Positions 51,018 to 64,000 of a stretch of DNA of 64,000 nucleotides are shown one piece after another. Source of the DNA: Bombella pluederhausensis (GTDB lineage Bacteria > Pseudomonadota > Alphaproteobacteria > Acetobacterales > Acetobacteraceae); contig NZ_JANIDY010000001.1 of the NCBI RefSeq assembly GCF_026385525.1, forward strand, positions 558,001-622,000. Direction: 5' to 3'. Position numbers and translations under genes: made by a program. The notes under the pieces were generated by a model. It saw only the letters and a program-made list of their open reading frames with translations. It searched no databases and was not told the DNA's origin. How positions within the stretch are numbered: position 1 is the first letter of the stretch; each line of letters starts with the position of its first letter.

Positions 51018-51253
51018 CACTGTCCTTCCTTTCCGTCCCGAAGCTTCGCCATCAGCTCATCATCCGTCTGGGGAGCTGTGGAGGCTGCCTTATTCATGCG
51101 GGATAGGGTGGCGTTCTGGGCATTGGCCTCAGTCACGCTCTGTTGCTCAGACAGGACACGGGCGGCGTTTCGTCCGGCTCGATACAGAACCCAGCCGAAC
51201 AGGGTGAGGGCAGCGATGAACGCCACCCCCAGCCCAGCGTAGAGATACATCAT
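51017..51253 (-). CDS. Small bitopic phage membrane protein, Rz-like inner-membrane spanin candidate
   Basis: 78 residues: amino-terminal membrane helix (LYAGLGVAFIAALTLFGWVLYRAG, about 3-26) followed by a polar, helix-prone periplasmic segment (ARVLSEQQSVTEANAQNATLSRMNKA) and a charged end with DDELMAKLRDGK, a tail common in phage lysis accessory proteins. The stop overlaps the lipoprotein start, and its own ATG overlaps the preceding stop by 4 bases. Confidence 0.55.
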   Translation of the reverse strand: MMYLYAGLGVAFIAALTLFGWVLYRAGRNAARVLSEQQSVTEANAQNATLSRMNKAASTAPQTDDELMAKLRDGKEGQ

Positions 51254-51558
51254 GCCGCAGAACTGACCTGTGCCGCAGTCGGCACTGGCTTTTTCTCTTT
51301 CACGGCGGCCGGCACATCATGGATACCGCCTTCTACTTCGGCCAGACCACTCTCAACACGGTTGATACCAGCAAAAGGGGCGGGAGCATCGAAACGGTCA
51401 TCCAGAAGGGAGGCCGCTTCATCAGAGATGCTGCCGAGAATGGTGGAAGCCAGATGCAGGCGTGTTTTGGTCTTGATGCTTTCGCTGTCCCCCATGGCGC
51501 CCTCAATGAGGCCGAATAGTCCGCCAATGATGGAAGATGGGGTGTTATTTTCAGACAT
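51250..51558 (-). CDS. Phage protein of unknown function, in the lysis module
   Basis: 102 residues, soluble, beginning SENNTPSSIIGGLFGLIEGAMGD with an amphipathic stretch and a Lys/Pro/Val/Ala tail. AAGGAAA precedes the ATG. It lies between the holin candidate (about 40 bases upstream) and the spanin-like pair (4-base overlap). No recognised family; its position suggests a lysis or holin-modulating accessory. Confidence 0.6.
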   Translation of the reverse strand: MSENNTPSSIIGGLFGLIEGAMGDSESIKTKTRLHLASTILGSISDEAASLLDDRFDAPAPFAGINRVESGLAEVEGGIHDVPAAVKEKKPVPTAAQVSSAA

Positions 51559-51600
51559 GGTGATTTCCTTTTCTGTGAGGGATGAGAAAGCCGGGTTCAG

Positions 51601-51852
51601 TCAACCTGGCTTGTGCGGTTCCTTGCCGGCGGCAGCGTTCTTTTCCAACGCTTCGACAACCGGAGGAATGGCAGCAGAGGCCACAGTGCGGGCCGTGCTG
51701 TTGTCGGGAAGGAGCAGGGGGACGGCAGCAATAAGCAGGGTCGATGCAAGGTTGGCATCAATCCCGCCCGTTACAGCGCCGGACAGACCGGCAATAATCA
51801 GAGAAAGACCCTGTAGCGTGGTTGGCTGACGTAACCAGTGCAGGGGCTTCAT
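51601..51852 (-). CDS. Small phage membrane protein, holin candidate
   Basis: 83 residues with two predicted hydrophobic segments (TLQGLSLIIAGLSGAVTGGI and LASTLLIAAVPLLLPD) and a charged carboxyl end (EKNAAAGKEPHKPG): the size and shape of a holin. Its start overlaps the endolysin-like gene stop by 4 bases, the usual holin/endolysin coupling. Confidence 0.6.
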   Translation of the reverse strand: MKPLHWLRQPTTLQGLSLIIAGLSGAVTGGIDANLASTLLIAAVPLLLPDNSTARTVASAAIPPVVEALEKNAAAGKEPHKPG

Positions 51853-52259
51853 GCTGCTACCGCCTCCTGTACACCGGCAACCTTGTCCACCAGAGAGCCG
51901 TAGGGGTTCTTGCCGTTCTCCATGAGAATGATCGCCCGCATCAGCCCTGCCACAAGCTGCGGCGTGAAAGGGCCGAGCTTCTGATCCGGCGTGACACCAA
52001 GGGCATGGGACACGCCTTCAATGTAGCTGGCCGTGTCGTTCTCAGTTGGTGGCGCCCATTTGCTGATGATGCCTTTCACCGTATCGAGGCCGTCACGCTG
52101 GTTATAACGGAGCAGCTGACCACGCAGGGCAATCAGCCCAGCTTCTGGTGTGGCGAACACGGCAAAGCGGCCATGTGGGCCCGGCTCTTTGTGCGCTCCT
52201 GCCTGCCCGACATAATTCAGGTTGCCCGGATTGTTGTTACGGATACCCCGTACTTCCAT
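51849..52259 (-). CDS. Phage endolysin-like protein (RNNNPGNL family)
   Basis: 136 residues from the ATG at 52259; the frame extends further but into the next gene. Starts MEVRGIRNNNPGNLNYVGQ and contains GRFAVFATPEAGLIALRGQLL, TVKGIISKWAPPTENDT and YIEGVSHALGV. This family occurs in many phage lysis and virion modules and resembles muramidase or transglycosylase proteins; it is often annotated simply as a structural protein. No signal peptide, so it would need the neighbouring holin. Not certain to be the endolysin, but no better candidate lies in the module. Confidence 0.6.
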   Translation of the reverse strand: MEVRGIRNNNPGNLNYVGQAGAHKEPGPHGRFAVFATPEAGLIALRGQLLRYNQRDGLDTVKGIISKWAPPTENDTASYIEGVSHALGVTPDQKLGPFTPQLVAGLMRAIILMENGKNPYGSLVDKVAGVQEAVAA

Positions 52260-52264
52260 GGGTT

Positions 52265-52504
52265 TTACCCTCCGATGTGGAAAATCTTCATGATGATGGC
52301 GATGATGATGCCGCCTGCGCCGTACCCTCCGGCAATGAACAGGGAGCGCCATGAATTACCTTTTCTGACCTGAACAAGGATGTTCTCGAGCATCTGCTGC
52401 TGGCTGGCCTGACGTTCCTTGACGACGGCCATGTCAACCTCGATGTCCCGGATGTCTTTCTTGATTTCCAGACCTTCGGCACGGGTCAGATACTGGTCAT
52501 TCAT
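52265..52504 (-). CDS. XhlA-like phage membrane protein
   Basis: 79 residues from the ATG at 52504: an acidic, helical amino half with RDIEVDMAVVKERQASQQQMLENIL (coiled coil, about 15-45), then a C-terminal membrane helix (LFIAGGYGAGGIIIAIIMKI). This matches the layout of XhlA/hemolysin-type proteins that work with holins. ATGA overlap with the signal-peptide protein upstream. Confidence 0.6.
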   Translation of the reverse strand: MNDQYLTRAEGLEIKKDIRDIEVDMAVVKERQASQQQMLENILVQVRKGNSWRSLFIAGGYGAGGIIIAIIMKIFHIGG

Positions 52505-52809
52505 GGGTGTTTCACCCCAGCACCAGAGGCATCCACCCACGCGCTTCCATTGAAGAAGACGGGCTGGCCTGTCCCGGCACAGTCAGTGCAGAAGAAGGTT
52601 GTGCCAGTTGGGGCAGAAAGCTGAAGGGCGGAATAGGGAACAGCCTTCATGCTCAATCCACCAGAAGTCCCAAAGGTCATGATGCCCTGCGCCGATGGAG
52701 GAAGATGTCCGCCATCAAAAATCCCATGCTGTGCAGGGGGAATGGCAATGCTGTCCGCAAGAGCCGTGCCAGTCATCAGGGATGCAAGAAGTGCGAGTGT
52801 GAAGCGCAT
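52501..52809 (-). CDS. Small phage protein with signal peptide; unknown
   Basis: 102 residues. A clean Sec signal (MRFTLALLASLMTGTALA, cut before DS) precedes a Gly/Pro/Ser-rich chain and a C-terminal motif FFCTDCAGTGQPVFFNGSAWVDA. That cysteine-glycine-tryptophan pattern recurs at the ends of phage tail-fibre proteins, so this may be a small exported decoration or a fibre remnant. First gene after the left copy of the 21-bp repeat and its hairpin. Confidence 0.6.
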   Translation of the reverse strand: MRFTLALLASLMTGTALADSIAIPPAQHGIFDGGHLPPSAQGIMTFGTSGGLSMKAVPYSALQLSAPTGTTFFCTDCAGTGQPVFFNGSAWVDASGAGVKHP

Positions 52810-52852
52810 GAGTGTCCGTCTCCATCATCAGGACGGACAGTTCATCATGCGT

Positions 52853-52873
52853 TTGTAATTCTGGTGTGTCTCA
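52853..52873 (-). repeat. 21-bp phage intergenic repeat, copy A
   Basis: Identical over 21 bases to 58364-58384. On the minus strand it begins TGAGACACACCAGAATTAC. It lies 44 bases upstream of the signal-peptide gene start and directly 3' of the 838-residue ejection protein gene. A TGTCCGTC/GACGGACA stem-loop follows between the repeat and the start codon. Candidate late promoter, processing or exchange site. Confidence 0.75.
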
Positions 52874-52878
52874 CAGGG

Positions 52879-55395
52879 TTATTTGGTCGCATTGTACAGG
52901 TTGATGGTCGGCGACACTAGGAAACCCTGTCCCTGATTGCGCTGGACGAGCTTTTCATAGCGGGCCGTATAGCCGGGGTTTATCATGTCCTGAAGGCTGT
53001 AGATCACGCCATATTTCAGGGCAGCATTAATGACGGGCAGGTTTCCGAACGGTATCTGCCCTGAAGCGAAGCGCACGAGATCGGCCAGATAGGTGCTGGC
53101 TTTCTTGGCATCAGGACTGCCCGTCAGCTCATCACGGGTAGAGGTGAATATCCCGAACAGTTTTGTCATATCAGAGAAGGTCGGACCTGCCAGCGTTTCC
53201 AGTGCGCTGTTCCCGATTCTGTTCTGCTGGCCAAAGAGGAAGTCCCCATAGATGCCAGCGCCACCGCCCTGCGCCATGGCCGACATCCATGTGCGGACAT
53301 CGCCTGCATCCCGTGGCTCTTTCCCAGCCAGTATGGCCTTGGTCTGCATGGCAACATAGCCCAGCACGGTCGTGGCAGCGATCATGTGGATGACGCCGGG
53401 CAGGTCCAGCCCGTTGCGCTGCACTTCCCGCTGATAGAAGCGGCGTACATGGGACACTGGGAAAGATTTGAACTGGAGCATGAGCCGTGCTGCCTGCCCC
53501 AGCCATGGATTCACATCATCCAGCCTGTTGCTGTTTCCCCGGAACTCTGCCTGCGTACGGACATCCGGCTCTGTCATGCCTTCACGGGTCTGGTCGGTGA
53601 TGTATGCATAGAGCTTTCTGGTTAGTTCATCCCGCACGTCATCGGCAGTCTGACCTTTCTCGAGGAGGGGAGTAACAGTCTCATCAGACAGGCAGCCCAT
53701 CTCGCTGGGCAGGATATGGTCTTCGCCTGCCGCTGTCCGTACGGCCTGTCGCATCACGTCCCATTCCGGCTGGGTAATGCCGAAGCGTTGCAGGCTGAAC
53801 CTTAGCTTTCCATCAAGAGCTTCATAGGCCAGACCCGCATTACGCCCCAGATTGTGGGATAGCATCATGCCAACGCCTTCTGACAGGCTGTCCGTCCAGT
53901 ATTGCAGGCCGTTGATGCGGTAAAACTTGTTGATGAGGTCGCTCATCTTTCCCAGAGGGGCGTCATTGGCAGAGAATCGGCTCATGACGGAGCCAAGGTG
54001 CCCTTGCAGCCCGACCCCCAGCATCCGGGCGATCTCCTTGCGTTCTTCCGGGTTTTCGCTGGCAAGGCCCGGCGCAAGGGCTTTCAGGCTGTTCCAGTAG
54101 CTTTCCAGCAGCGGCACACCATTATGCCGCAGGACGGAGGCATTCACGGCCAGATCGGGCAGGGAGGAAATGACGACCCCGCCCAGCTTCGTGACCTGGT
54201 TCCATGCGTGGGCATAGGCTCCGATGGTTTCCACCGTCTTGTTGGCCGGCTGTCTGGCCCTGCCTGTTATGATGTCCAGCAGGGCACTGCGCTCCAGCCT
54301 GCGGAGCCGGTCCACCATTTTGCCATCAGCGCGCTCACGGGCAGCCTGTACAGCTTCTTCGATCATGCTGCGGAACATGTTTTCAGGATTGGTACCTAGA
54401 TCGCCCATCACGGCGGCATTGCGTGCTCCGCTGATGAGCCCCTTGAAGACGCTGTCCACCACATGCCCCTGACCGAACTTCTTATTGTATGCCAGCCAGC
54501 CATCGGCATCCTTGAAGTGCAGCACACGGTTCTGACTGACCTTCCTGGCAAGGTTCGATGTGCCCTTGAAGCCAGAAAGCCAGTCCCGCCCGTTGGCATT
54601 GTCATGCTCACCAGTGGACAGGTTCAACCAGACATTGCGGAGGAAATCTTCCTTCGACTGCCTGGCTGGCATCATGTCGAAGGTTCGGTCATCCAGCAAG
54701 GGAAGGATGGTATCCCGCCAGTTCTGATAGGCCAGATCAGAACTATCACCCCGTATCTTCCACATGTCATGGCTCTGGCGGGTGACGTAATGGTCTGCCT
54801 TGCCAATCCATGCGCCCTGCTTGTTCTGCATCAGCCGCACTGTGTCCTGATATTCAGACAGGATGCGGGCAGCCTCAGCAGCCAGCTTATTGCCCGTTGG
54901 TGCTCCAGCTTTCGGGTCATCCAGACGCCACATCTCACGGGCCACATCGGCGTCAAACTGTTCATCACGCTTCAGCAGGGCCTTGAAGACGCCTGCCTTG
55001 TCCAGATCGTGCATGAGCGGCCCAAGAAGCTGGGCGATGCGGGCGTGGCTGTTGGCATCAACAGAGAGGGCAGCACCATGCTCTCCGGTTTGCTTGCCAG
55101 CGAGAATACCCTCAAGGGATGCGGCTTCATCGCCTGCCACCACACGGCGGCGCAGGGCGGCCCGGACGATGAGGTTTTTCTTGCGGGCATTGGCCTCGAT
55201 GATGGCGGCCAGACGTTCCTCATCGGCCATGCGGGCACCGGCTTTCTCCAGTGCCTCCCGTGGGGATAGGCCCTGCTTCATGTAGCGTCCAGCTTCCTTC
55301 TCCAGCCGCCCGAACATCTCATCAAGCTCCGCCTTGGACATTTCACGCCCGGCGGCTTTCTCGGCTTCATTGTAGCAGGGGTTCTCGTGGGTCAT
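52879..55395 (-). CDS. Large phage internal virion / DNA-ejection protein
   Basis: 838 residues, mostly alpha-helical, soluble, with Ala-rich stretches. AAGGAAA lies before the ATG, and the start overlaps the preceding gene's stop by 4 bases. No catalytic motif was recognised. Size, helical content, place after the tail tubular gene and pairing with a second giant protein match the internal virion proteins of T7-like podoviruses (gp15/gp16 type), which form the channel for genome entry. Sequence likeness to T7 is not visible by eye, so the call rests on context. Confidence 0.65.
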   Translation of the reverse strand: MTHENPCYNEAEKAAGREMSKAELDEMFGRLEKEAGRYMKQGLSPREALEKAGARMADEERLAAIIEANARKKNLIVRAALRRRVVAGDEAASLEGILAGKQTGEHGAALSVDANSHARIAQLLGPLMHDLDKAGVFKALLKRDEQFDADVAREMWRLDDPKAGAPTGNKLAAEAARILSEYQDTVRLMQNKQGAWIGKADHYVTRQSHDMWKIRGDSSDLAYQNWRDTILPLLDDRTFDMMPARQSKEDFLRNVWLNLSTGEHDNANGRDWLSGFKGTSNLARKVSQNRVLHFKDADGWLAYNKKFGQGHVVDSVFKGLISGARNAAVMGDLGTNPENMFRSMIEEAVQAARERADGKMVDRLRRLERSALLDIITGRARQPANKTVETIGAYAHAWNQVTKLGGVVISSLPDLAVNASVLRHNGVPLLESYWNSLKALAPGLASENPEERKEIARMLGVGLQGHLGSVMSRFSANDAPLGKMSDLINKFYRINGLQYWTDSLSEGVGMMLSHNLGRNAGLAYEALDGKLRFSLQRFGITQPEWDVMRQAVRTAAGEDHILPSEMGCLSDETVTPLLEKGQTADDVRDELTRKLYAYITDQTREGMTEPDVRTQAEFRGNSNRLDDVNPWLGQAARLMLQFKSFPVSHVRRFYQREVQRNGLDLPGVIHMIAATTVLGYVAMQTKAILAGKEPRDAGDVRTWMSAMAQGGGAGIYGDFLFGQQNRIGNSALETLAGPTFSDMTKLFGIFTSTRDELTGSPDAKKASTYLADLVRFASGQIPFGNLPVINAALKYGVIYSLQDMINPGYTARYEKLVQRNQGQGFLVSPTINLYNATK

Positions 55396-58328
55396 GGGGC
55401 TTTCCTTGTCAGGCAGGCAGCTGCGGAGGTGAGGGCATCGGCATTGCCATCGGAGAGGTCTTTCTCACGTTGGATTTCTGCCAGCTCATCCAGGCTGATC
55501 TGATCGCCCAGCGCAGTGAGCTGACGGTCGATCTGGTCGGAATAGGACTGTGCTTCGGTGATGGCTTGACTTTTCGGGGCAGGATTTCCATTGTCAGAGG
55601 CGCTGCTGTGGCGACTACTGGTATACACGCCATCACTGCCGGATTTATCAGGTGATGACGGGGGAAGGTTGGCACTCTTTTCGGCAGGGTGCGACAGGTT
55701 GGGGCGGCTTCCGTCCCATAGCAGCTTTCCTTCTTGATTTCTGTCTTCTCCAGTAGCTAGAGTGCCGGAAGATGCTTCTTCAGCCCCGACAGTCGCTGAA
55801 GGTTTTTGGTCATCGGGCATGTGGCCAGCTGGATTTAGGGGATGATCTTGCCCATTACGGTCTGAAGGGGTAGTGCGACGCCCTTCCTGAAGAAGTGTCT
55901 TCTTGTTCAGATAACCTGACTTGAACGGTGCGGCTGTTTTGACAAGGTAATAGCCGTCTTCTTTTTTGAGTTCCGTGACAGTGGCATCATGCTTTGCGCT
56001 GCTGGTGTTTTTCTCACCACGGACGATGATGAAATATGAACCATTCCGCTCATCCAGCCTTACCTCATTTGCATTCTTCAGAATGTGGCTGATGTAGCTG
56101 TCGACATCGTCAAAACCTGATGCTTTCATCTGGTGTCCATGCCGCTCCATTATGTGATGGCGGCCCGTAGCGTAATAGACGGTCTTTCCGTCCTTCTTGT
56201 ATGGTGTGTGGGCTTTTTCACCATCACTTACGAGAACTGGCCAGTCTGGAACGCCTTCAATACCGGAAGGCATCCGTCCGACCATAACCGGGTTGCTCCC
56301 TGCCGCTGAAAGGTCCAGATGCTCAATACCGCCGGTTGGGAGTGGGGAAACATCCTGTCCCTGTTCCGGGCTGGGGGCCGCTTCTCTTTGGGAAGAAAGG
56401 CCTGCACGGCTCTGCGTGACCTCGTGATCCTCATACCCATGAAGGTTCCGCATGATGGCTTCGGCGGCACCCTGCTGAAGCTCATCGAGGCGCTGATGCG
56501 CTGCCTGATAGGCTTCCTGCACAACATCCTGCCATCCAGCATCATGGCCCTTGCCTTTTTCAGTTTCGATGAGGCGCAGGGCATGTTCCACAGCATCTTC
56601 CGGGCTGTCGCCTCGTAGGATGGACCCAGCCAGATCATACAGGCTCAGACTATCCACATCGGCATCAAGGTGCCGTGCATAGAGCCCCAGACGCTGGCGG
56701 GTGAGGGCATGGAGAAGCTGCTGTTTCGCCCCGATACGGGCGTGATGAACGGCCCTGCCTTCATCCATCATGGAGACGTAGCGGTCCCATGTGGAATGGC
56801 TGGCAAGCCGCAGGGCGTCCTCTATGGCATCATCAGGGTGGAGACCGGAAAGGATGGCGTCCGTGGCATGACTGTGTTCTTCTGGCGTCAGGGTGATGTT
56901 GGCATGAAGGGCCGCTTCATCAGCATCATCTGCCGCTCTTTCCCGGTGATGGTCTTCAATGCCGGAGAAGTCGGCCATCTGGCCTGATTGTTCGCCATTG
57001 GGGAAGACTTTGCGACCGTGGCTTTCTTCCACCATGGCATCCAGAAGATCGCTGATGTCAGCATCCGGCCTGAGATAGCCATGCTCGATGGCCCGTTCCC
57101 GTGCGGTATCCAGAGACATGCCCCCATTGCGGCGCACAAGACCGATGCGCTGGCGGTGAATGTCATTGGCTCGTAACTCGCCCCCTTCATCCAGCACGCC
57201 GCCATGACGGATAAGGAAGGTGAACAGGGAAGGGGATGATGGGCTGCTGCTGGCTGACATGGCAGGCTGCGGTGCAGTATTGTCGGACTGCTCCGGCTCA
57301 TCATCAGGACGCTCATAGAGGGCCGCTTCATCCAGCGTGTCAGCATGGCTCTGCCGGAGCTGGGACAGGTCATCAGCAATCCTGTCCCGCAGGGGAACCT
57401 GAGACGTGGTTTCATCAGGCTCAGCACCATGCTCGGCCATAGTGCGATCGAGGTCATTTCTGGCGTTCTGGATTTCATGGATGTTCAGCAGGCTTTCAGC
57501 ATTGCTGGGACTGTCGCTGGCCATGGAGGTGAGACCATCGGCCAGAAGCTGCCCCTTGGCATTGGTCCCGGCCCGCTCAAGGCGCTTGCCGAAGGCATAG
57601 CCCAGACCATGCAGGGAGCCGCCCAGGATGCCACCAAAGGCGATATTGCCCAGAGCCTGTCCGGCGCTCCAGTCATTATGCTCGTCACGGTCCAGATACA
57701 TGTTGAGCGGTTCGAGAGCCGCCATGCCAACCGTCCCTTGGCTGGCACCCTGCACCGCACGTCCGGGCAGGCTTCCGGAGAGAGCCGCACCGACACGGCG
57801 GTTCAGCCCTTCGGCACTGAGTAGCCCATCAGCTACCCGCTCCATGCCAAAGCCCTCGGCACGAGCGGCGGCACTGCCAAGGGCTATGCCGATACGTTCT
57901 TCACCGAGACCGGGGATCAGTGCGGCAGCATAATTGATGGGGTCCAGAAAGGACGGAAGGGCACCCGCCGCCGTGTTCAGTATGCCACTGATGGCACCAT
58001 CCGGCCCGTTGCGAATGGTGTTCTGCCGGATGAGGCTATTCTGCTTTTCCGCATTGAGGGTCTGGGCCAGAGCGGATGAAACAGGCTGGTCGAAACTGAG
58101 AACACCCTTGATGCCATAACGGGCATTGGCATCGTCCGGGCTGAGGGTATCGCCTTCGGTGCTTTTTGTCTCATGGCGTAGCCAGTCACTAAGGCGAACG
58201 ACCGGCGTGTCATTGATTCCTTCCATGAAGGAAGCGCCAAGAGACTGCTCAAAGGATGACTGCTGCCCGGCCAGCCCCTCATCCTGAACGCTCTTGAGCG
58301 TGTTCAGTCCACCAGAAAATAATGACAT
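55392..58328 (-). CDS. Giant phage internal virion protein with embedded Barnase/EndoU/ColicinE5-RelE-like nuclease domain
   Basis: 978 residues. The first ~260 residues have glycine-rich, membrane-active-looking stretches (ALGNIAFGGILGGSLHGLGYAFG), followed by charged linkers and helical repeats (for example ESHGRKVFPNGEQSGQ near 435). Residues about 717-816 form a distinct compact domain: GRHHIMERHG (His724, His725, Arg729, His730), FDDVDSYISHILKNANEVR, GSYFIIVRG, ATVTELKKEDGYYLVKTAA and GYLNKKTLL. This is the pattern of phage-type Barnase-EndoU-ColicinE5/D-RelE-like nucleases, seen in MuF-like injected toxins. A disordered Ser/Pro linker and short helical tail follow. Good GGGGGGAG ribosome site. 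Confidence 0.68.
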   Translation of the reverse strand: MSLFSGGLNTLKSVQDEGLAGQQSSFEQSLGASFMEGINDTPVVRLSDWLRHETKSTEGDTLSPDDANARYGIKGVLSFDQPVSSALAQTLNAEKQNSLIRQNTIRNGPDGAISGILNTAAGALPSFLDPINYAAALIPGLGEERIGIALGSAAARAEGFGMERVADGLLSAEGLNRRVGAALSGSLPGRAVQGASQGTVGMAALEPLNMYLDRDEHNDWSAGQALGNIAFGGILGGSLHGLGYAFGKRLERAGTNAKGQLLADGLTSMASDSPSNAESLLNIHEIQNARNDLDRTMAEHGAEPDETTSQVPLRDRIADDLSQLRQSHADTLDEAALYERPDDEPEQSDNTAPQPAMSASSSPSSPSLFTFLIRHGGVLDEGGELRANDIHRQRIGLVRRNGGMSLDTARERAIEHGYLRPDADISDLLDAMVEESHGRKVFPNGEQSGQMADFSGIEDHHRERAADDADEAALHANITLTPEEHSHATDAILSGLHPDDAIEDALRLASHSTWDRYVSMMDEGRAVHHARIGAKQQLLHALTRQRLGLYARHLDADVDSLSLYDLAGSILRGDSPEDAVEHALRLIETEKGKGHDAGWQDVVQEAYQAAHQRLDELQQGAAEAIMRNLHGYEDHEVTQSRAGLSSQREAAPSPEQGQDVSPLPTGGIEHLDLSAAGSNPVMVGRMPSGIEGVPDWPVLVSDGEKAHTPYKKDGKTVYYATGRHHIMERHGHQMKASGFDDVDSYISHILKNANEVRLDERNGSYFIIVRGEKNTSSAKHDATVTELKKEDGYYLVKTAAPFKSGYLNKKTLLQEGRRTTPSDRNGQDHPLNPAGHMPDDQKPSATVGAEEASSGTLATGEDRNQEGKLLWDGSRPNLSHPAEKSANLPPSSPDKSGSDGVYTSSRHSSASDNGNPAPKSQAITEAQSYSDQIDRQLTALGDQISLDELAEIQREKDLSDGNADALTSAAACLTRKAP

Positions 58329-58363
58329 AGCTCCCCCCTGTGAGGGAGAAGCATGTCAGGGGG

Positions 58364-58384
58364 TTGTAATTCTGGTGTGTCTCA
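58364..58384 (-). repeat. 21-bp phage intergenic repeat, copy B
   Basis: Identical to 52853-52873. It starts 36 bases upstream of the 978-residue gene and takes in the stop codon of the tail tubular gene. A CCCCCTG/CAGGGGG stem-loop follows, abutting the ribosome-binding site. Confidence 0.75.
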
Positions 58385-60658
58385 GTTTCCCAGTTCCACA
58401 TCCACGCTGACGCTGGTAACGGTCACGGGCAACGGCTGGTCTGTCTGAAGAATGAAGCTACCCTTTTGGGTCCAGTTGGGCGTGGGTATCCGCATGGTCA
58501 TGCCGGAGATGAGCGCAGGGCCGGTATCTTTCTTCTGGTAAGGGTTAGGAGCTGACGGCCCTGCGGCGGCTCCCTGATTGTCCAAATCATGGAAGGTCCT
58601 GCCCTCGTTGGTGGATACACTCAGGCCGGAGGTGTTGTAGAGCGAGGCATACACCTTGCTGACACGCTTGCGCCGGGCGAACTGCGGCGGGTTTCCGAGA
58701 TCCAAGGGGAGGGTGACGGCCCGTGCACGGATGGGCAGACCAACCGTGACCACGCTACCGGAACGGGGCAGGGAGAGGGTGCCATCATTCCCGACTGTCA
58801 ACCCCGTGAAACCACGGCCATTAATGCAGGCTGATACGGTTGCCCCAGCCAGATGGCCCAGACCGGAGACGGTGATGGTTGCCTGCCCTTCGTAGCGCAG
58901 GCCACAGTCCACGAACCATGATCGGGTGATGTCATCATTCTCTGCCCCCAGCTGGCGGGACTGGATGCGCTCCACCGTGTAACTCTGCCGCCCTGCAATG
59001 GTGCGCTTCACTACGACATAGGGCGTATCCTCAATGGCGCCATAGCCATTTTCTTCCGGCACGATCGCAACCGACTGGAAGGCACCACCTTCCGTCTTGT
59101 GCTGGTGCCACGCCATGACATTCTGTTCCTTCAGATAGGTCATGCTCAGCATGGCCCCATCCGACCGCACGGCCCAGATCAGGTTGAAGGGGAACTGTGC
59201 AAAGGACCAGTCAGAAATCGTGTAGCCATAGAAAAGATGGTCTGCCAGTACGGACAGGTCATTGCCCTGGTAAATCTGGGCATACCAGTCATATTGCAGG
59301 TCACGGATATGGCTGCCCTTGTTCTCGATGAACAGTACGTCAGTATTGATCGGCAAGGGCTGCACATCGGAACTGCCTACGAACATCTGCGGTATGGCCG
59401 TGAAGTTGGAAGGCGTGATGGGCGTTCCCGTCTGGCCGCCTGAGATTTTCCATATGCCTGTTCCGGTAAAGGCCAGAAGGTCGGCCATGGGGACCAGATG
59501 CTTGATGGTGTTGACCTGCTGGCTGGCAATGGTGGCCGTGATGGCATCATCCGAAACGACAGGCGTGTGAATGTCGAAATTGGTATAGTTGGCGCTGCGG
59601 CTCATCCAGACCGTCTGAGGGTAGGCAAAAGACCCGGCAAAGACACGCCGCTGCTGGAAGTAGGTGACAGAGACCGGATTGTTGTTGCCGTCAAAGGGAT
59701 TGCGATGGGCAGGCGGACCATTCTCGGTATCTGGAGCGTAATTCACGTCATCGAAGCTGAGGGACGTGGTATTGCCAATCAGACCCCACTGGCCTGCAAA
59801 TCTACGATAGACGTTATAATAATCAGCCCCAGACACGGCAGGCCATGAGAGCGTGTTGTAGTTCCCGTAGTTCGTATAATAGCCGATATTGTAATTCGTC
59901 ACGAAGCGGCCAACCTCTACAGGAACCTGAGACGTGACCGTGCTTGTCTTGCCTGTTGCAGGGTCCGTGACCGTCTGGGTCTGAGTGGTCATTTCTGTCT
60001 GGGACGGTGCCAGCGTGGCGTTGCTTTCCGTGTTCTTATCATTGGAGACGGAGGTGACGGCATATTCATACTTCACCTTGGATACGCCGGGCGTTGTGCC
60101 TGTATTGCCCGCATTACCTTCCACGGCAGAGGCCACGAGTGAAGCTGGGGCCTCAATGCCAGAACTGTATGGAATGACCTCCAGCGTCCAGTCAGTTTCT
60201 CCACGGCGGGAGAGGTTCATGGCGGGATAGCTGGAATGGGTCAGGGTCATCACGTCTGCCGACTGGGCATGACGCAGCCAGAAGGCATCCGCAATGCTGT
60301 AGGGCGTAGCCAGCTCGTAGGGACTGCCATCAGGGTTGGTAAGATAGGCCCCATTGCTGATGAAGCGGAGATAGTGGTCGCCAAACTCCAGCACATAGGA
60401 CTGACTGTTATTGTAGATGAAGGCAATCAGCTTCGGTGGCGGCCCGGCGGCATCAGCCTTCGATGTGCCGATATACTGCGTTCCGGGACGGTTTGAGATG
60501 CCGCCTTGCACATGCACAAAGAAGTTTTCCAACTCGGCAGCACCAGAATGCCATTTTTCCATGTCTGATCGATAGCCGATCAGGGGGGCCATGATGCCCC
60601 CACTGAAAGAGCTGAACCATGTCAGCCCGACCTGCGGGCCAGAAGGAGCCTGTGCCAT
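58382..60658 (-). CDS. Phage tail tubular / nozzle protein (gp12/gp10-like)
   Basis: 758 residues, largely beta, no signal peptide. Start: VGLTWFSSFSGGIMAPLIGYRSDMEKWHSGAAELENFF, then GGISNRPGTQYIG. The N-terminal pattern, Gly-rich then R-x-D and N ... GG..RPGT, is the hallmark of phage tail tubular B / stabilisation proteins, the nozzle through which DNA leaves in podoviruses. ATGA overlap with the dextranase-like gene. Confidence 0.75.
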   Translation of the reverse strand: MAQAPSGPQVGLTWFSSFSGGIMAPLIGYRSDMEKWHSGAAELENFFVHVQGGISNRPGTQYIGTSKADAAGPPPKLIAFIYNNSQSYVLEFGDHYLRFISNGAYLTNPDGSPYELATPYSIADAFWLRHAQSADVMTLTHSSYPAMNLSRRGETDWTLEVIPYSSGIEAPASLVASAVEGNAGNTGTTPGVSKVKYEYAVTSVSNDKNTESNATLAPSQTEMTTQTQTVTDPATGKTSTVTSQVPVEVGRFVTNYNIGYYTNYGNYNTLSWPAVSGADYYNVYRRFAGQWGLIGNTTSLSFDDVNYAPDTENGPPAHRNPFDGNNNPVSVTYFQQRRVFAGSFAYPQTVWMSRSANYTNFDIHTPVVSDDAITATIASQQVNTIKHLVPMADLLAFTGTGIWKISGGQTGTPITPSNFTAIPQMFVGSSDVQPLPINTDVLFIENKGSHIRDLQYDWYAQIYQGNDLSVLADHLFYGYTISDWSFAQFPFNLIWAVRSDGAMLSMTYLKEQNVMAWHQHKTEGGAFQSVAIVPEENGYGAIEDTPYVVVKRTIAGRQSYTVERIQSRQLGAENDDITRSWFVDCGLRYEGQATITVSGLGHLAGATVSACINGRGFTGLTVGNDGTLSLPRSGSVVTVGLPIRARAVTLPLDLGNPPQFARRKRVSKVYASLYNTSGLSVSTNEGRTFHDLDNQGAAAGPSAPNPYQKKDTGPALISGMTMRIPTPNWTQKGSFILQTDQPLPVTVTSVSVDVELGN

Positions 60659-62637
60659 CAGGGCACCGCATAATCGCTGGAGGCTACATTATTTTCAAGC
60701 CAGACCATATCCCAGTAGCTGAGGGAAGGCAGCGTGAAGGTGATGTAGGTACCATTGCTGTCCTGTCCTGGTGAATAGGATATGGTCTGAGGTGCTCCAT
60801 GCCGAACATCGGGAGACGCCCAGAAAAGCCAACCTAGTGCTGATCCGGATGTCACATACATTTTGACGGAAAGCGGCCCTGTCGTCTGAGGGGCCGCGGC
60901 GTTTGCGGCATTGTCGTTCACGTCATTGAATGAAGCACTGTTCATCTGCTGGTAATTCAGGAGATGCAGCATGTCGAAACCGGGTCTGGTTGTCTGAAGC
61001 AGCCATATCTTTCCTGCCTGTGCAGTGGTACTGCCTGAACCGCCTGATGTAATGGAAGCTGCTGGCAGGGAAGGTGCCCTTACATCACGGCGCAGGAGTT
61101 TCTCATACGCTACGCCAAAGCTCTGATAGTCATATTCAGCCTGGGCCATGCCAGCGGGAAGGGGAAGCATGTTTCCGATGGGATAGTCATCATTGGAGAT
61201 GAAACGTGCACCATCCCCCTGAGACTGCTGGCCATCTACGATCCAGTCATGATGGGCCCCAGTCGCCATGATGGCGGCCTCCTGATACAGCACACCCGGG
61301 AGATTGAATGTGCAGTATCGTGCCCCTCCATTTATGGCGCAGTTCTTATCCTGCATGGGGCCTTTATTCATGCCCAGATCCCAGTCCATTCCTATTCCGT
61401 GAGGACGGCTGCTGGCCCAGCTCTGTATCTGTTGGGCTCGTGTCCAGAAATCACCAAAATTTCCAACGTCAGAAGGATTGTTCCACCGCTCATTGAAATG
61501 GAAGACTTCTCTCCGGCTCTGCACAAGGTCTTGTTCATTCCAGCTTCCGGCTGGATTGAGCGTCATGGGAGCATTGGTCAGGCCCGTGACTGTTGTGATG
61601 AACGAAGAATAGGCGTGTGAGAAATCAACCTGTCGTCCCTGTGCGTCATACAGCGCTTCGCTGATTCCTCCATAGGTGTCGATGAAGATACCATCGAAAC
61701 CGAATTCATGGATAATCTTGTTGGCTTGTTGTGCCCAGTAATACTGCCATTCTGTATTATTTGGGTTCATGTATCCGATGTTTGCATAGAACTTTTTCAT
61801 ATCGGCAGTGCTGCATGTACCGCCATTGAGTCCACACTGGTTTGTAAACAGCCCCCACGAAATGGAAGCTCCTGATCCATCTTCCATAACGGCAGGTTTT
61901 ATGCCGATATTGGCGGCATAAAGAGGGAAGTAGAAGAAGCTCCCCATATGCAGGGCCTTGGCTGTGGCCATGGCACGGCGCATGAGAGGTTTTTCTACGG
62001 TTTCACCATCACCATTGACGTAGCGTTCTTCATTGGACCACGGCTGATGCCAGCGATAGAGAAGGTTGTAGAACTGGAGATTGTTGCAGTGATAGGCATT
62101 CAGGCTGCTGACATTTTTTTCCGGGGATGTTCCGTAGATGACTTCTGGTTTCCATTCTCCCCAGTCAGAAAATGCTCCTACCAGCCAGCACTGGCGTGGA
62201 TAAGTCCACCAGTCTGGAGAGAAGTCGATGGCTGTTGCCTGCTCATCAATGAGCCTGCCTGAAGACGTGGCGTCCAGCACGACGTGATAGCCCTGATAGG
62301 ATGACATGGGGGTGGTTGGCACATCGAGCTCGACAGTCATTTCTTGCCCTTGTGGGAGGGCATCTACACTGCGAACTATAGGGGTTCTGACCTGACGGCC
62401 ACGGCCTGTCACGGTGGCCGTAATGGATCCGCTAAAATTACCTCCTGTTCGGTTATTTAGATGAATGAACAGACGGGCGATATTTCCCTCATCATAATGG
62501 GATCTGTCCATATTGATGGACTGGATGAGAGGGCCAGAAAGGTGAGGGCCTTCTTCTGGATGGAATGACCCCGCATATGCACACGAGGCCATAAAAAGGG
62601 AAAAAAGGGCTGGGATGGACTTACCAGTAAGGTTCAT
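60658..62637 (-). CDS. Exported glycoside hydrolase family 66 protein (dextranase-like)
   Basis: 659 residues with signal peptide (SIPALFSLFMASCAYA, cut before GSF). An N-terminal beta domain (about 30-140) precedes a TIM-barrel domain: YPRQCWLVGAFSDWGEW, AYHCNNLQFYNLLYRWHQPW (the Y-H-x-N-x-x-QFY signature), FFYFPLYAANIG, HEFGFDGIFIDTYG with candidate nucleophile Asp320, and candidate acid/base Glu377 or Glu383 in REVFHFNERW; a C-terminal beta domain follows. Known GH66 members cut alpha-1,6-glucan (dextran) or make cyclic isomaltooligosaccharides. Joined by overlaps to the fibre gene (17 bases) and tail tubular gene (4 bases). A Sec signal on a tail-operon enzyme is odd: it may be a secreted depolymerase. 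Confidence 0.78.
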   Translation of the reverse strand: MNLTGKSIPALFSLFMASCAYAGSFHPEEGPHLSGPLIQSINMDRSHYDEGNIARLFIHLNNRTGGNFSGSITATVTGRGRQVRTPIVRSVDALPQGQEMTVELDVPTTPMSSYQGYHVVLDATSSGRLIDEQATAIDFSPDWWTYPRQCWLVGAFSDWGEWKPEVIYGTSPEKNVSSLNAYHCNNLQFYNLLYRWHQPWSNEERYVNGDGETVEKPLMRRAMATAKALHMGSFFYFPLYAANIGIKPAVMEDGSGASISWGLFTNQCGLNGGTCSTADMKKFYANIGYMNPNNTEWQYYWAQQANKIIHEFGFDGIFIDTYGGISEALYDAQGRQVDFSHAYSSFITTVTGLTNAPMTLNPAGSWNEQDLVQSRREVFHFNERWNNPSDVGNFGDFWTRAQQIQSWASSRPHGIGMDWDLGMNKGPMQDKNCAINGGARYCTFNLPGVLYQEAAIMATGAHHDWIVDGQQSQGDGARFISNDDYPIGNMLPLPAGMAQAEYDYQSFGVAYEKLLRRDVRAPSLPAASITSGGSGSTTAQAGKIWLLQTTRPGFDMLHLLNYQQMNSASFNDVNDNAANAAAPQTTGPLSVKMYVTSGSALGWLFWASPDVRHGAPQTISYSPGQDSNGTYITFTLPSLSYWDMVWLENNVASSDYAVP

Positions 62638-63535
62638 AATGGGTACTCCCCTCGTTGTCTTTTATGGGGCGGCAGCCTGTTGATCCAGGGATGGAACCGC
62701 ATAAGCTTGTATTGGTTGTCGTTCCCCAATATTGAGGAATAGCCTGCATGTTGATAACTGAAGCATAGATAGTAAGGGCATTTGAGCTTCCATTAGCAGA
62801 TATCACACTCTTGCCACTGGAATCCTGCCATATTTGTAGATAATTTCTAGTATTTTTGCTTGATATATTCACTGTTGAACCGTTAAGGTTTACGTTTCCG
62901 CTTTCAACATTAAGTGAATTTCCAAATATGCTAACATGATTTCCATTTGGATCAATATTTAGATTTCCTACTTCATCCTGCCATATGTCTGCCACACTTC
63001 CTGATATGGTTGATCTGAACCGGATTAAGGGAGACGGCGCAGATGTGATTGTCATCCGACCTGTTATTTCAGGATCGGGAGAAATCCACGTTTGTGATCC
63101 AATACCAAGAAATGATCCATTACTCGTACCATCCAGAAAGAATATGGGTGAGAATGAGCCGTATTCATCAAAAAACCCAAGTGCTGGACGTCCATCAACT
63201 GGCTGAAAGCTGATAATCTGTTTTTCTGTGCTTGCTAGATTGAACCCACTATTTCCTGTTAATGTCAGATTTGTTGCTGTTCCATTTTCAGCAGGTAGCA
63301 TCCCAGAAAGAGCATCCTGAATAGACTTGATATCGGACTGACCAACTTTAGACTGCAAATCAGAATTAATGCTATCAAGAGCATTTGGTATCGGCTGCCC
63401 CTTATAAAGGAGAGCCGCCTGCCAATCTGCCAACGTGGGAGCATAATTCTGTGTCCATCGGGCTGGGGAAACTTGTGCTACCCCTGTTGATGGAAACGCA
63501 GCCAGAAATGCGACCAGCCATAGGAATTTTTTCAC
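62621..63535 (-). CDS. Phage fibre-like protein with signal peptide
   Basis: 304 residues from a GTG at 63535, preceded by AGGAG; the stop of the upstream gene overlaps (GTGA). Signal peptide KKFLWLVAFLAAFPSTGVA, then a short N-terminal segment with LADWQAALLYKGQP, and a Gly/Asn/Ser-rich body with repeats such as NLNIDPNGNHVSIFG, NVESGNVNLNGSTVNISS that look like a beta-solenoid. The end GCRPIKDNEGSTHYEPYW is a typical phage fibre terminus. The gene is visibly more AT-rich than its neighbours, suggesting recent exchange. Confidence 0.65.
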   Translation of the reverse strand: MKKFLWLVAFLAAFPSTGVAQVSPARWTQNYAPTLADWQAALLYKGQPIPNALDSINSDLQSKVGQSDIKSIQDALSGMLPAENGTATNLTLTGNSGFNLASTEKQIISFQPVDGRPALGFFDEYGSFSPIFFLDGTSNGSFLGIGSQTWISPDPEITGRMTITSAPSPLIRFRSTISGSVADIWQDEVGNLNIDPNGNHVSIFGNSLNVESGNVNLNGSTVNISSKNTRNYLQIWQDSSGKSVISANGSSNALTIYASVINMQAIPQYWGTTTNTSLCGSIPGSTGCRPIKDNEGSTHYEPYW

Positions 63536-64000
63536 AGTTCTATTTCTCCTGATCCATCCTGAATGCCATCGGTAATGGTGCCGTGATAAGGCCTGCGCCA
63601 CCCGGCAGGGCTCTGACCGATAGTCAGGATGCCAATGCGACCATCTGGGGTATCGGCGGGGATATACAGGCATGATCCATCAGCAATATCCCTCATGGTC
63701 AGGCCAGTGGGGATGACACCATTTTCCCCCATGGGTGGCGCATAGGGAGCAGCAGCCGGGGCAGGTGGCTGACTGCCACCCGCTACATAGCCAACATCCA
63801 GCGTATTGCTTGTCTGATGGATGTGATGACCATAGCCAAGGCCAGATAAGCGCACACCAAGCCAGTCAGGCACAGTCTCGGTGCTGACAACCTCAACACG
63901 CTGGTCAGCCAGACAGGCCCGCTCCACTTCACGGCTTGCTTCCTGCTCCACGGCAGCAATCGTGCTGCCATCAATGCCCAGCGTGGTGGCAACAGATGAG
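63532..64000 (-). CDS. Phage protein, 5' part beyond the window edge; unknown
   Basis: The frame is open to the right edge (about 156 codons seen, starting SSVATTLGIDGSTIAAVEQ); a GTG at 63951 is in frame but not necessarily the start. It includes a central GHHIHQTSNTLDVGYVAGG with a Pro/Ala linker and ends GTITDGIQDGSGEIEL. No family recognised. It is the upstream partner of the fibre-like gene, with a 4-base overlap. Confidence 0.6.
   Translation of the reverse strand, partial: SSVATTLGIDGSTIAAVEQEASREVERACLADQRVEVVSTETVPDWLGVRLSGLGYGHHIHQTSNTLDVGYVAGGSQPPAPAAAPYAPPMGENGVIPTGLTMRDIADGSCLYIPADTPDGRIGILTIGQSPAGWRRPYHGTITDGIQDGSGEIEL

Follow-up and report, generated by a model that had tools for sequence, protein, structure and literature searches.

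A prophage tail operon of Bombella pluederhausensis contains a gene for an enzyme of glycoside hydrolase family 66 (GH66), whose members include known dextranases, directly downstream of a presumed tail-fibre gene. Both genes lie in the window, that is, the whole 64,000-nucleotide stretch that we analysed (NZ_JANIDY010000001.1, positions 558,001 to 622,000 of the forward strand). The explanation that we favour, with about as much reserve as confidence, is that the enzyme is a phage-borne capsule depolymerase that is paired with the presumed fibre, exported, and freed at lysis. It builds on the family identity and conserved catalytic residues of the enzyme, its signal-peptide features and operon position, the exchange of the gene pair between phages, and the co-occurrence of GH66 with one capsule cluster. 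The features on which the argument turns are as follows, in window coordinates:

60658..62637, minus strand: GH66 (dextranase family) protein, 659 aa, with a Sec-type signal peptide at residues 1-22
62572..62637, minus strand: GH66 signal peptide, MNLTGKSIPALFSLFMASCAYA, followed by GS (heuristic rule)
61678..61680, minus strand: codon of the candidate nucleophile Asp320, aligned to the 5axg/5axh position and invariant in 12/12 copies
61489..61491, minus strand: codon of the candidate acid/base Glu383, invariant in 12/12 copies
62621..63535, minus strand: presumed tail fibre, with a GTG start, signal VKKFLWLVAFLAAFPSTGVA followed by QV, and the W-type motif PARWTQNYAPTLADWQAALLYKG
60660..63576, minus strand: exchangeable slot holding fibre and GH66, from blastn of L030 against the window
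63532..64000, minus strand: upstream tail gene, phrog_394, 321 aa, running past the window end
58382..60658, minus strand: downstream tail gene, phrog_376 'tail protein', 758 aa (PHROG match)

The family assignment is borne out by a full-length match to the Pfam GH66 profile PF13199, far over the cut-off (E=2.6e-84, 284.2 bits against 23.7; residues 44-646, profile positions 2-546 of 546). An earlier note, made from the letters of this DNA alone, had called the gene a GH66 dextranase-like enzyme, and it was right about the coordinates and strand (a 659-aa open reading frame (ORF) at 60658-62637, minus strand), about the QFY region, which reads NNLQFYNLLYRWH, and about Asp320 as the candidate nucleophile: this residue aligns with a position at which 5axg has D and 5axh has G, and it is kept in 12/12 aligned copies. 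D315 and E383 are likewise invariant in these 12 GH66 copies, and six cysteines are each kept in at least 11 of them; from knowledge of the family, we take Glu383 to be the acid/base.

Among Protein Data Bank (PDB) sequences, the best matches are the dextranases 5axg/5axh and cycloisomaltooligosaccharide glucanotransferases (CITases). The alignment with 5axg is collinear and in one piece, whereas the CITase 3wnk, a member of the same family, is split into two aligned pieces, between which it has about 117 residues more than the query, an insert that we take to be the CITase CBM35. The dextranase layout therefore fits the protein better, and a CITase identity was ruled out by the missing insert within the catalytic region. 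Against the NCBIfam endo-dextranase equivalog EndoDexBT3087 the protein scores 170.7 bits, under the curated cut-off of 730. With the PDB dextranases (5axg, 3vmn 'Dextranase'; 8iu8 'Candidate dextranase') it shares the collinear match and the catalytic Asp position, but it differs in its place in a phage tail operon, in its six conserved cysteines, and in an identity of about a quarter to GH66 proteins outside the acetic acid bacteria (25-26% to L002 and L003). By alignment, phage and chromosomal copies have one and the same architecture, with no extra virion anchor domain on the GH66 protein.

The position in a tail operon, with stop/start overlaps on both flanks as the earlier note had described, also holds. 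The phrog_394 and phrog_376 tail genes lie around the fibre and GH66 genes; the GH66 start at 62637 falls inside the upstream ORF, which ends at 62621 (a 17-base overlap), and the GH66 stop shares base 60658 with the next ATG (TGATG), so that the phrog_376 tail gene begins in that stop. The fibre GTG at 63535 in turn overlaps the stop of the phrog_394 tail gene and is preceded by a Shine-Dalgarno-like AGGAGA. Scans for promoter-like and terminator-like sites gave 5 and 6, about what shuffled sequence yields (5.6 and 5.2). The G+C content is 43% in the window's fibre gene and 52% in the GH66 gene, against 57-58% in two downstream tail genes.

The signal-peptide features of the GH66 protein, MNLTGKSIPALFSLFMASCAYA, which had been read from the letters before, are upheld by a heuristic n-, h- and c-region rule with internal starts allowed. 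All 18 GH66 proteins with an N-terminus from acetic acid bacteria or viral contigs were flagged; this set comprises 13 proteins plus L122, L123, L124, L125 and L126 (L049 equals L123), and leaves out L020, whose N-terminus is cut by the contig end, and two Bacteroides-type rows. These are not 18 independent cases, because some are close kin (L030/L031 98% and L021/L022 94% identical). As a control, 5/112 structural proteins from outside the slot were flagged with internal starts allowed, and 0/112 at the called start; among 292 ORFs of at least 150 aa from 28 loci, fibres, GH66 and host proteins included, 29 were flagged at the called start. The window's gene upstream of GH66 is flagged as well, a feature absent from the earlier note. 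Slot-fibre ORFs were flagged in 21 of 27 cases (16/22 plus L049, L122, L124, L125 and L126), the unflagged ones being L030, L069, L070, L071, L110 and L113b (the second half of a split fibre), and such signals precede presumed fibres also in slots that lack GH66. The idea that fibre signal peptides serve disulfide formation was dropped, as it yields no rule: unflagged fibre ORFs hold 1 to 17 cysteines.

The two genes are exchanged between otherwise similar prophages. The genome G334, from the same genus, has the same prophage as the window: in blastn, homology covers 51250-60660 of the window (with a gap at 55563-56372) and resumes at 63576, at 83-89% identity, one switch point being the GH66 stop codon. 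The G334 slot (L030) holds a 219-aa fibre-like gene (signal unflagged) and a 785-aa GH66 (signal flagged) that is 27% identical to the window's, bears a CBM6 at its end, and has a signal peptide whose N-terminal sequence is unrelated to that of the window's enzyme. Fibre and GH66 hence behave as an exchangeable cassette among acetic acid bacterial phages. A copy at the capsule locus of G334 (L031) is 97.3% identical over 697 bp to the phage copy of that genome, the contig ending inside the gene; because the match runs on into the upstream phage gene for about 117 bp, we regard L031 as phage-derived, and a host origin was ruled out.

The suggestion in the earlier note that a secreted dextranase in a phage structural operon would be a new combination does not stand, since phiAX1 and seven further loci carry a signal-bearing presumed fibre with a signal-bearing GH66. 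In phiAX1 (LC644973, our L001; Acetobacter sp. ATCC 21760), genes 440-450 are a presumed fibre and then a GH66, in the same order as in the window, annotated as a hypothetical protein and a CITase (phiAX1_450); this GH66 is 46% identical to the window's. phiAX1 is P22-like, with the Pfam matches P22_portal, P22_CoatProtein and Phage_stabilise, whereas the window has a different tail type (phrog_394/376). The pair has phiAX1-like neighbours in Asaia lannensis (L022), in Gluconobacter roseus (L049, with the same proteins as IMG/VR L123) and in IMG/VR L122 and L124. Mu-like neighbours surround it in IMG/VR L125 (DNA circularisation, gp44/GpP, gp45 and baseplate J) and L126 (minor tail and a gp48 match just below cut-off; the contig end cuts its GH66), and in Saccharibacter (L023) it adjoins PHROG tail-fibre-like genes. 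L004 is a fragment of the phiAX1 type. The faecal records L002 and L003 (MT835882, MT835837), labelled 'Bacteriophage sp.', were not counted among the phages: with TonB receptors (both) and SusD (L002) near GH66, they resemble sugar-use loci of Bacteroidota. The single match in the plasmid collection is a Bacteroides GH66.

The published phiAX1 DNA came from DNase-treated particle fractions after mitomycin C (PMC8566455). Neither 'dextran' nor 'cycloisomaltooligosaccharide' occurs in the main text of that paper, as distinct from its Table S4, and no tape measure is among the names of 64 of the 73 phiAX1 features. The main text reports contractile-tailed particles for the strain (PMC8566455), yet the portal, coat and stabilisation genes of the genome are P22-like. 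Literature searches on phage dextranase or GH66, on signal-bearing tail fibres and on CITase with phage gave no relevant work among the titles listed, and those on Bombella, prophage and capsule none among the matches listed; 'dextranase' is absent from the available portions of two prophage surveys (PMC9379143, PMC10259446). For one Klebsiella phage, signal peptides have been predicted in an internal virion protein, and also in a spanin, an endolysin and a hypothetical protein (PMC10194101), so that a signal prediction on a virion protein is not a first here. A paper on another Klebsiella phage names signal peptides in the endolysin and the holin, while also stating that none were predicted (PMC12989515).

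The ratio of nonsynonymous to synonymous change (dN/dS) is 0.15 between the phage GH66 and the lone GH66 copy of Asaia lannensis, and 0.08 between those of phiAX1 and G. roseus, with synonymous sites near saturation. In the latter pair of phages, GH66 is the most diverged of four genes (71% identity, against 86% for the fibre, 92% for the stabilisation protein and 98% for the coat). In the GH66 tree, phage and capsule-linked copies are intermixed, and the tree gives no direction of transfer because several forks are open and L030 has a long branch.

That the gene upstream of GH66 is a tail fibre is presumed from its place, its mosaic build and a match of one relative. PHROGs gave no match for its counterparts in phiAX1, L022, L107, L114, L070, L071, L073 and L076b, nor did Pfam for the slot proteins of phiAX1, L107 and L073; the signal-bearing slot protein of L076b, the sole one matched among the slot relatives scanned, hits the right-handed beta-helix family PF13229, and a right-handed beta-helix is the fold of many tailspikes. 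The motif after the signal follows the tail type, being P..W.QNY.P(T/S)...W in phrog_376-type tails (this W-type motif is elsewhere given as P..WTQNY.P...DWQ) and IP.M...VTL.GP.G in P22-like ones. Distal fibre parts are common across tail types (W with AX; L072 with L116 and L117; L076a with L107 and L108). The W-type motif also occurs in the same slot in fibres without a flagged signal (L030, L069, L070 and L071). From these patterns, the N-terminal motif resembles an anchor to the virion, before which an export signal may or may not stand. Four P22-like prophages (L109, L111, L112 and L115) have no such gene in the slot.

A further line of evidence links GH66 to the surface of the host. GH66 is present in 9/397 Acetobacteraceae genomes; in a class-wide sample it exceeds the cut-off in 1/376 genomes, the window's own, with three more below it. 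The capsule cluster in question encodes a glycosyltransferase (Gly_transf_sug), a polysaccharide export protein and an ATP-binding cassette (ABC) transporter, and its glycosyltransferase is found at E<=1e-30 in 8/397 genomes, all of them among the nine with GH66 (hypergeometric p=6e-16 by genomes; p=4e-10 by genera, with 7 and 8 of 102 genera; these p values, like that of the slot test below, take no account of kinship). Out of 13 GH66 places, six are near cluster genes (L020, L025, L027, L028, L029 and L031), four are in tail operons (the window, L022, L023 and L030), one is beside a signal-bearing fibre alone (L026), and two stand alone (L021 and L024). Decayed remnants of the window's phage adjoin the cluster of its own genome, which is at C1:646-655 kb; the transferase of that cluster has two weak PDB matches, one of them an alpha-1,6-mannosyltransferase (E=0.048).

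Prophages of two podovirus tail types allowed the slot itself to be compared across 22 genomes. Where the cluster is present, GH66 sits in the slot of three of four genomes (G000, G334 and G085; not G070), and where it is absent, in 0/18 (Fisher p=0.0026). Excluded from this test were 3/13 phrog_376-type genomes (G059, G297 and G326; short contig or weak match) and 12/24 P22-type genomes with weak matches; G215, where GH66 adjoins the capsule cluster, is the only GH66 genome of these 15. The earlier note had offered the alpha-1,6-glucans of acetic acid bacteria as the substrate, and this idea can be narrowed: GH66 tracks one specific ABC-type capsule cluster, and no GH70 dextransucrase was found in the nine carriers, although the control set likewise had no genome over the GH70 cut-off, so that the sensitivity of this search was not demonstrated.

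Taken together, the pair may be understood as a two-gene adsorption cassette that is swapped among acetic acid bacterial phages. The enzyme would be translated together with the late tail genes and carried by the Sec system of the host into the periplasm, a compartment in which disulfides could form between its conserved cysteines. It would accumulate there and, if the timing is as we suppose, be set free at lysis. It might then cut the capsule made by the ABC-transporter cluster, perhaps of an alpha-1,6-glucan type, and this could clear the way for progeny and for new adsorption. The naming of the polymer as an alpha-1,6-glucan follows only from knowledge of the GH66 family. A parallel exists with the tailspike and capsule depolymerases of phages (e.g., those of Klebsiella): in both cases, the adsorption module encodes an enzyme for a surface glycan as an exchangeable cassette. 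Capsule depolymerases of the tailspike type, however, are virion-bound and lack Sec signals, whereas the window's enzyme has a Sec-type signal and no anchor domain of its own. Phage lambda lom resembles it as a Sec-exported product encoded within the tail region, but is an outer-membrane protein and no enzyme.

Several observations weigh against this depolymerase explanation, some of them in the window's own prophage. A terminase (phrog_2) was not found in its genome (G000), where the same query finds those of G296, G334 and G317 (it was also not found in G170, where another tail lies upstream), and its portal (PF12236) is a 93-residue match with an internal stop. For these two reasons, the prophage is not expected to make particles alone, and the release of an exported depolymerase by it, as proposed in the earlier note, is doubtful; being defective, it may hold GH66 as a relic or in the service of the host. 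The signal peptides were flagged by a home-made rule, a heuristic that allows internal starts, and the window's presumed fibre has no Pfam or PHROG match, which weakens its label. The co-occurrence rests on nine genomes and one glycosyltransferase threshold, and it was established within the 397 Acetobacteraceae genomes. The ninth GH66 genome, G132, has no cluster glycosyltransferase at E<=1e-30; it is a draft of about 350 contigs in which GH66 has a cluster-protein homologue as its neighbour. In G070, the cluster occurs together with a P22-like prophage whose slot lacks GH66. Phage tail genes, though they coincide with GH66 less than the glycosyltransferase does, are themselves mildly enriched in GH66 genomes (2/13, p=0.03; 3/24, p=0.01), and GH66 and the cluster may simply travel together.

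Other explanations account for parts of the same evidence. The exported fibre and GH66 could be virion parts that reach the periplasm by way of Sec, take on their fold there and join the particles at lysis, with the N-terminal domain of the fibre as anchor. The fit of N-terminal motifs to tail type while distal parts cross types, the occurrence of the W-type motif in the same slot in signal-bearing and signal-free proteins alike, and the tailspike-like beta-helix of L076b speak for this; nonetheless, GH66 has no anchor domain beyond what the chromosomal copies have, most scanned slot 'fibres' match neither Pfam nor PHROGs, so that the fibre and anchor labels are themselves deduced, and virion assembly in tailed phages is generally cytoplasmic. 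We therefore regard it as possible but doubtful. The broader proposal, that acetic acid bacterial phages route tail fibres, along with a fibre-linked glycanase where present, through Sec and load them by N-terminal anchors at lysis, is slightly more doubtful still as judged from the sequences, and we know of no tailed phage with such an assembly route; if true, Sec-routed fibre assembly would span P22-like, Mu-like and phrog_376-type tails. Alternatively, in a form of lysogenic conversion, the prophage could supply the cluster's periplasmic glycanase, for instance for chain-length control or the clearing of stalled polymer. A host role is conceivable because chromosomal GH66 copies have the same architecture, and it would suit an enzyme that is the sole GH66 of a genome with the cluster (the 60658..62637 copy), that lies in or near the cluster in other hosts, and whose ORF is intact despite the defective prophage. 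It is less easily squared with the tight overlaps with tail genes on both sides, promoter-like sites not above chance, the swapping of the slot together with a fibre-like gene, and the presence of GH66 in phiAX1, recovered from particles according to the main text of PMC8566455; we hold it to be doubtful.

The two remaining alternatives concern the substrate and the signal. A foreign dextran, such as that made from sucrose by lactic acid bacteria of nectar or bee habitats, could be cut to aid phage or host across a biofilm; GH66 does include dextranases, and, with no GH70 found in the carriers, dextran would have to come from outside, but a foreign substrate would not lead one to expect that GH66 tracks the capsule cluster of its host so nearly perfectly, and we consider this unlikely. 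Finally, the protein could be an ordinary cytoplasmic tail depolymerase, as phage tailspikes usually are, with an N-terminus that is hydrophobic by chance. With 18/18 GH66 proteins flagged against 0/112 (called start) and 5/112 (lax rule) controls, and with the 27%-identical G334 enzyme flagged despite its unrelated N-terminal sequence, such a chance feature is highly improbable.

Further phage genes lie at lower coordinates in the window:

55392..58328, minus strand: virion-region protein, 978 aa, phrog_3003 (unknown function; PHROG match)
52879..55395, minus strand: virion structural protein, 838 aa, phrog_684 (PHROG match)
52501..52809, minus strand: 102-aa protein with a signal-peptide-like start, MRFTLALLASLMTGTALA, read by eye; weak phrog_20787 match
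51849..52352, minus strand: lysozyme-like phage protein, phrog_873 'endolysin' (PHROG match)

The 978-aa protein contains a weak PBECR3-type nuclease match (E=0.02, under cut-off). The 102-aa protein has a CxxC, and also occurs in G334 (83%) and in a decayed copy (L007:2725-3039); decayed tail-region pieces of 81-95% identity span L007:2125-5285, equivalent to C1:642.1-645.3 kb, about 150 bp past a tRNA-Ser gene. Where sibling prophages would have late genes, a ResIII-type helicase of 918 aa (phrog_32711) is encoded at L006:7589-10345. A 'levanase' family protein (phrog_21583) is encoded at L068:5461-7092 and L024:17895-19517, in L068 upstream of the phrog_376 gene.

Across seven genera, these findings link a single phage-borne gene with a single capsule cluster of the hosts, and through this link the substrate of the enzyme and the chemistry of the capsule become testable together. 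Members of a single enzyme family are used by capsule clusters and by phage tail operons alike, and in one genome the copy at the capsule locus is phage-derived. Moreover, the signal-bearing presumed fibres raise the question of whether adsorption proteins of tailed phages may be exported before they join the virion.

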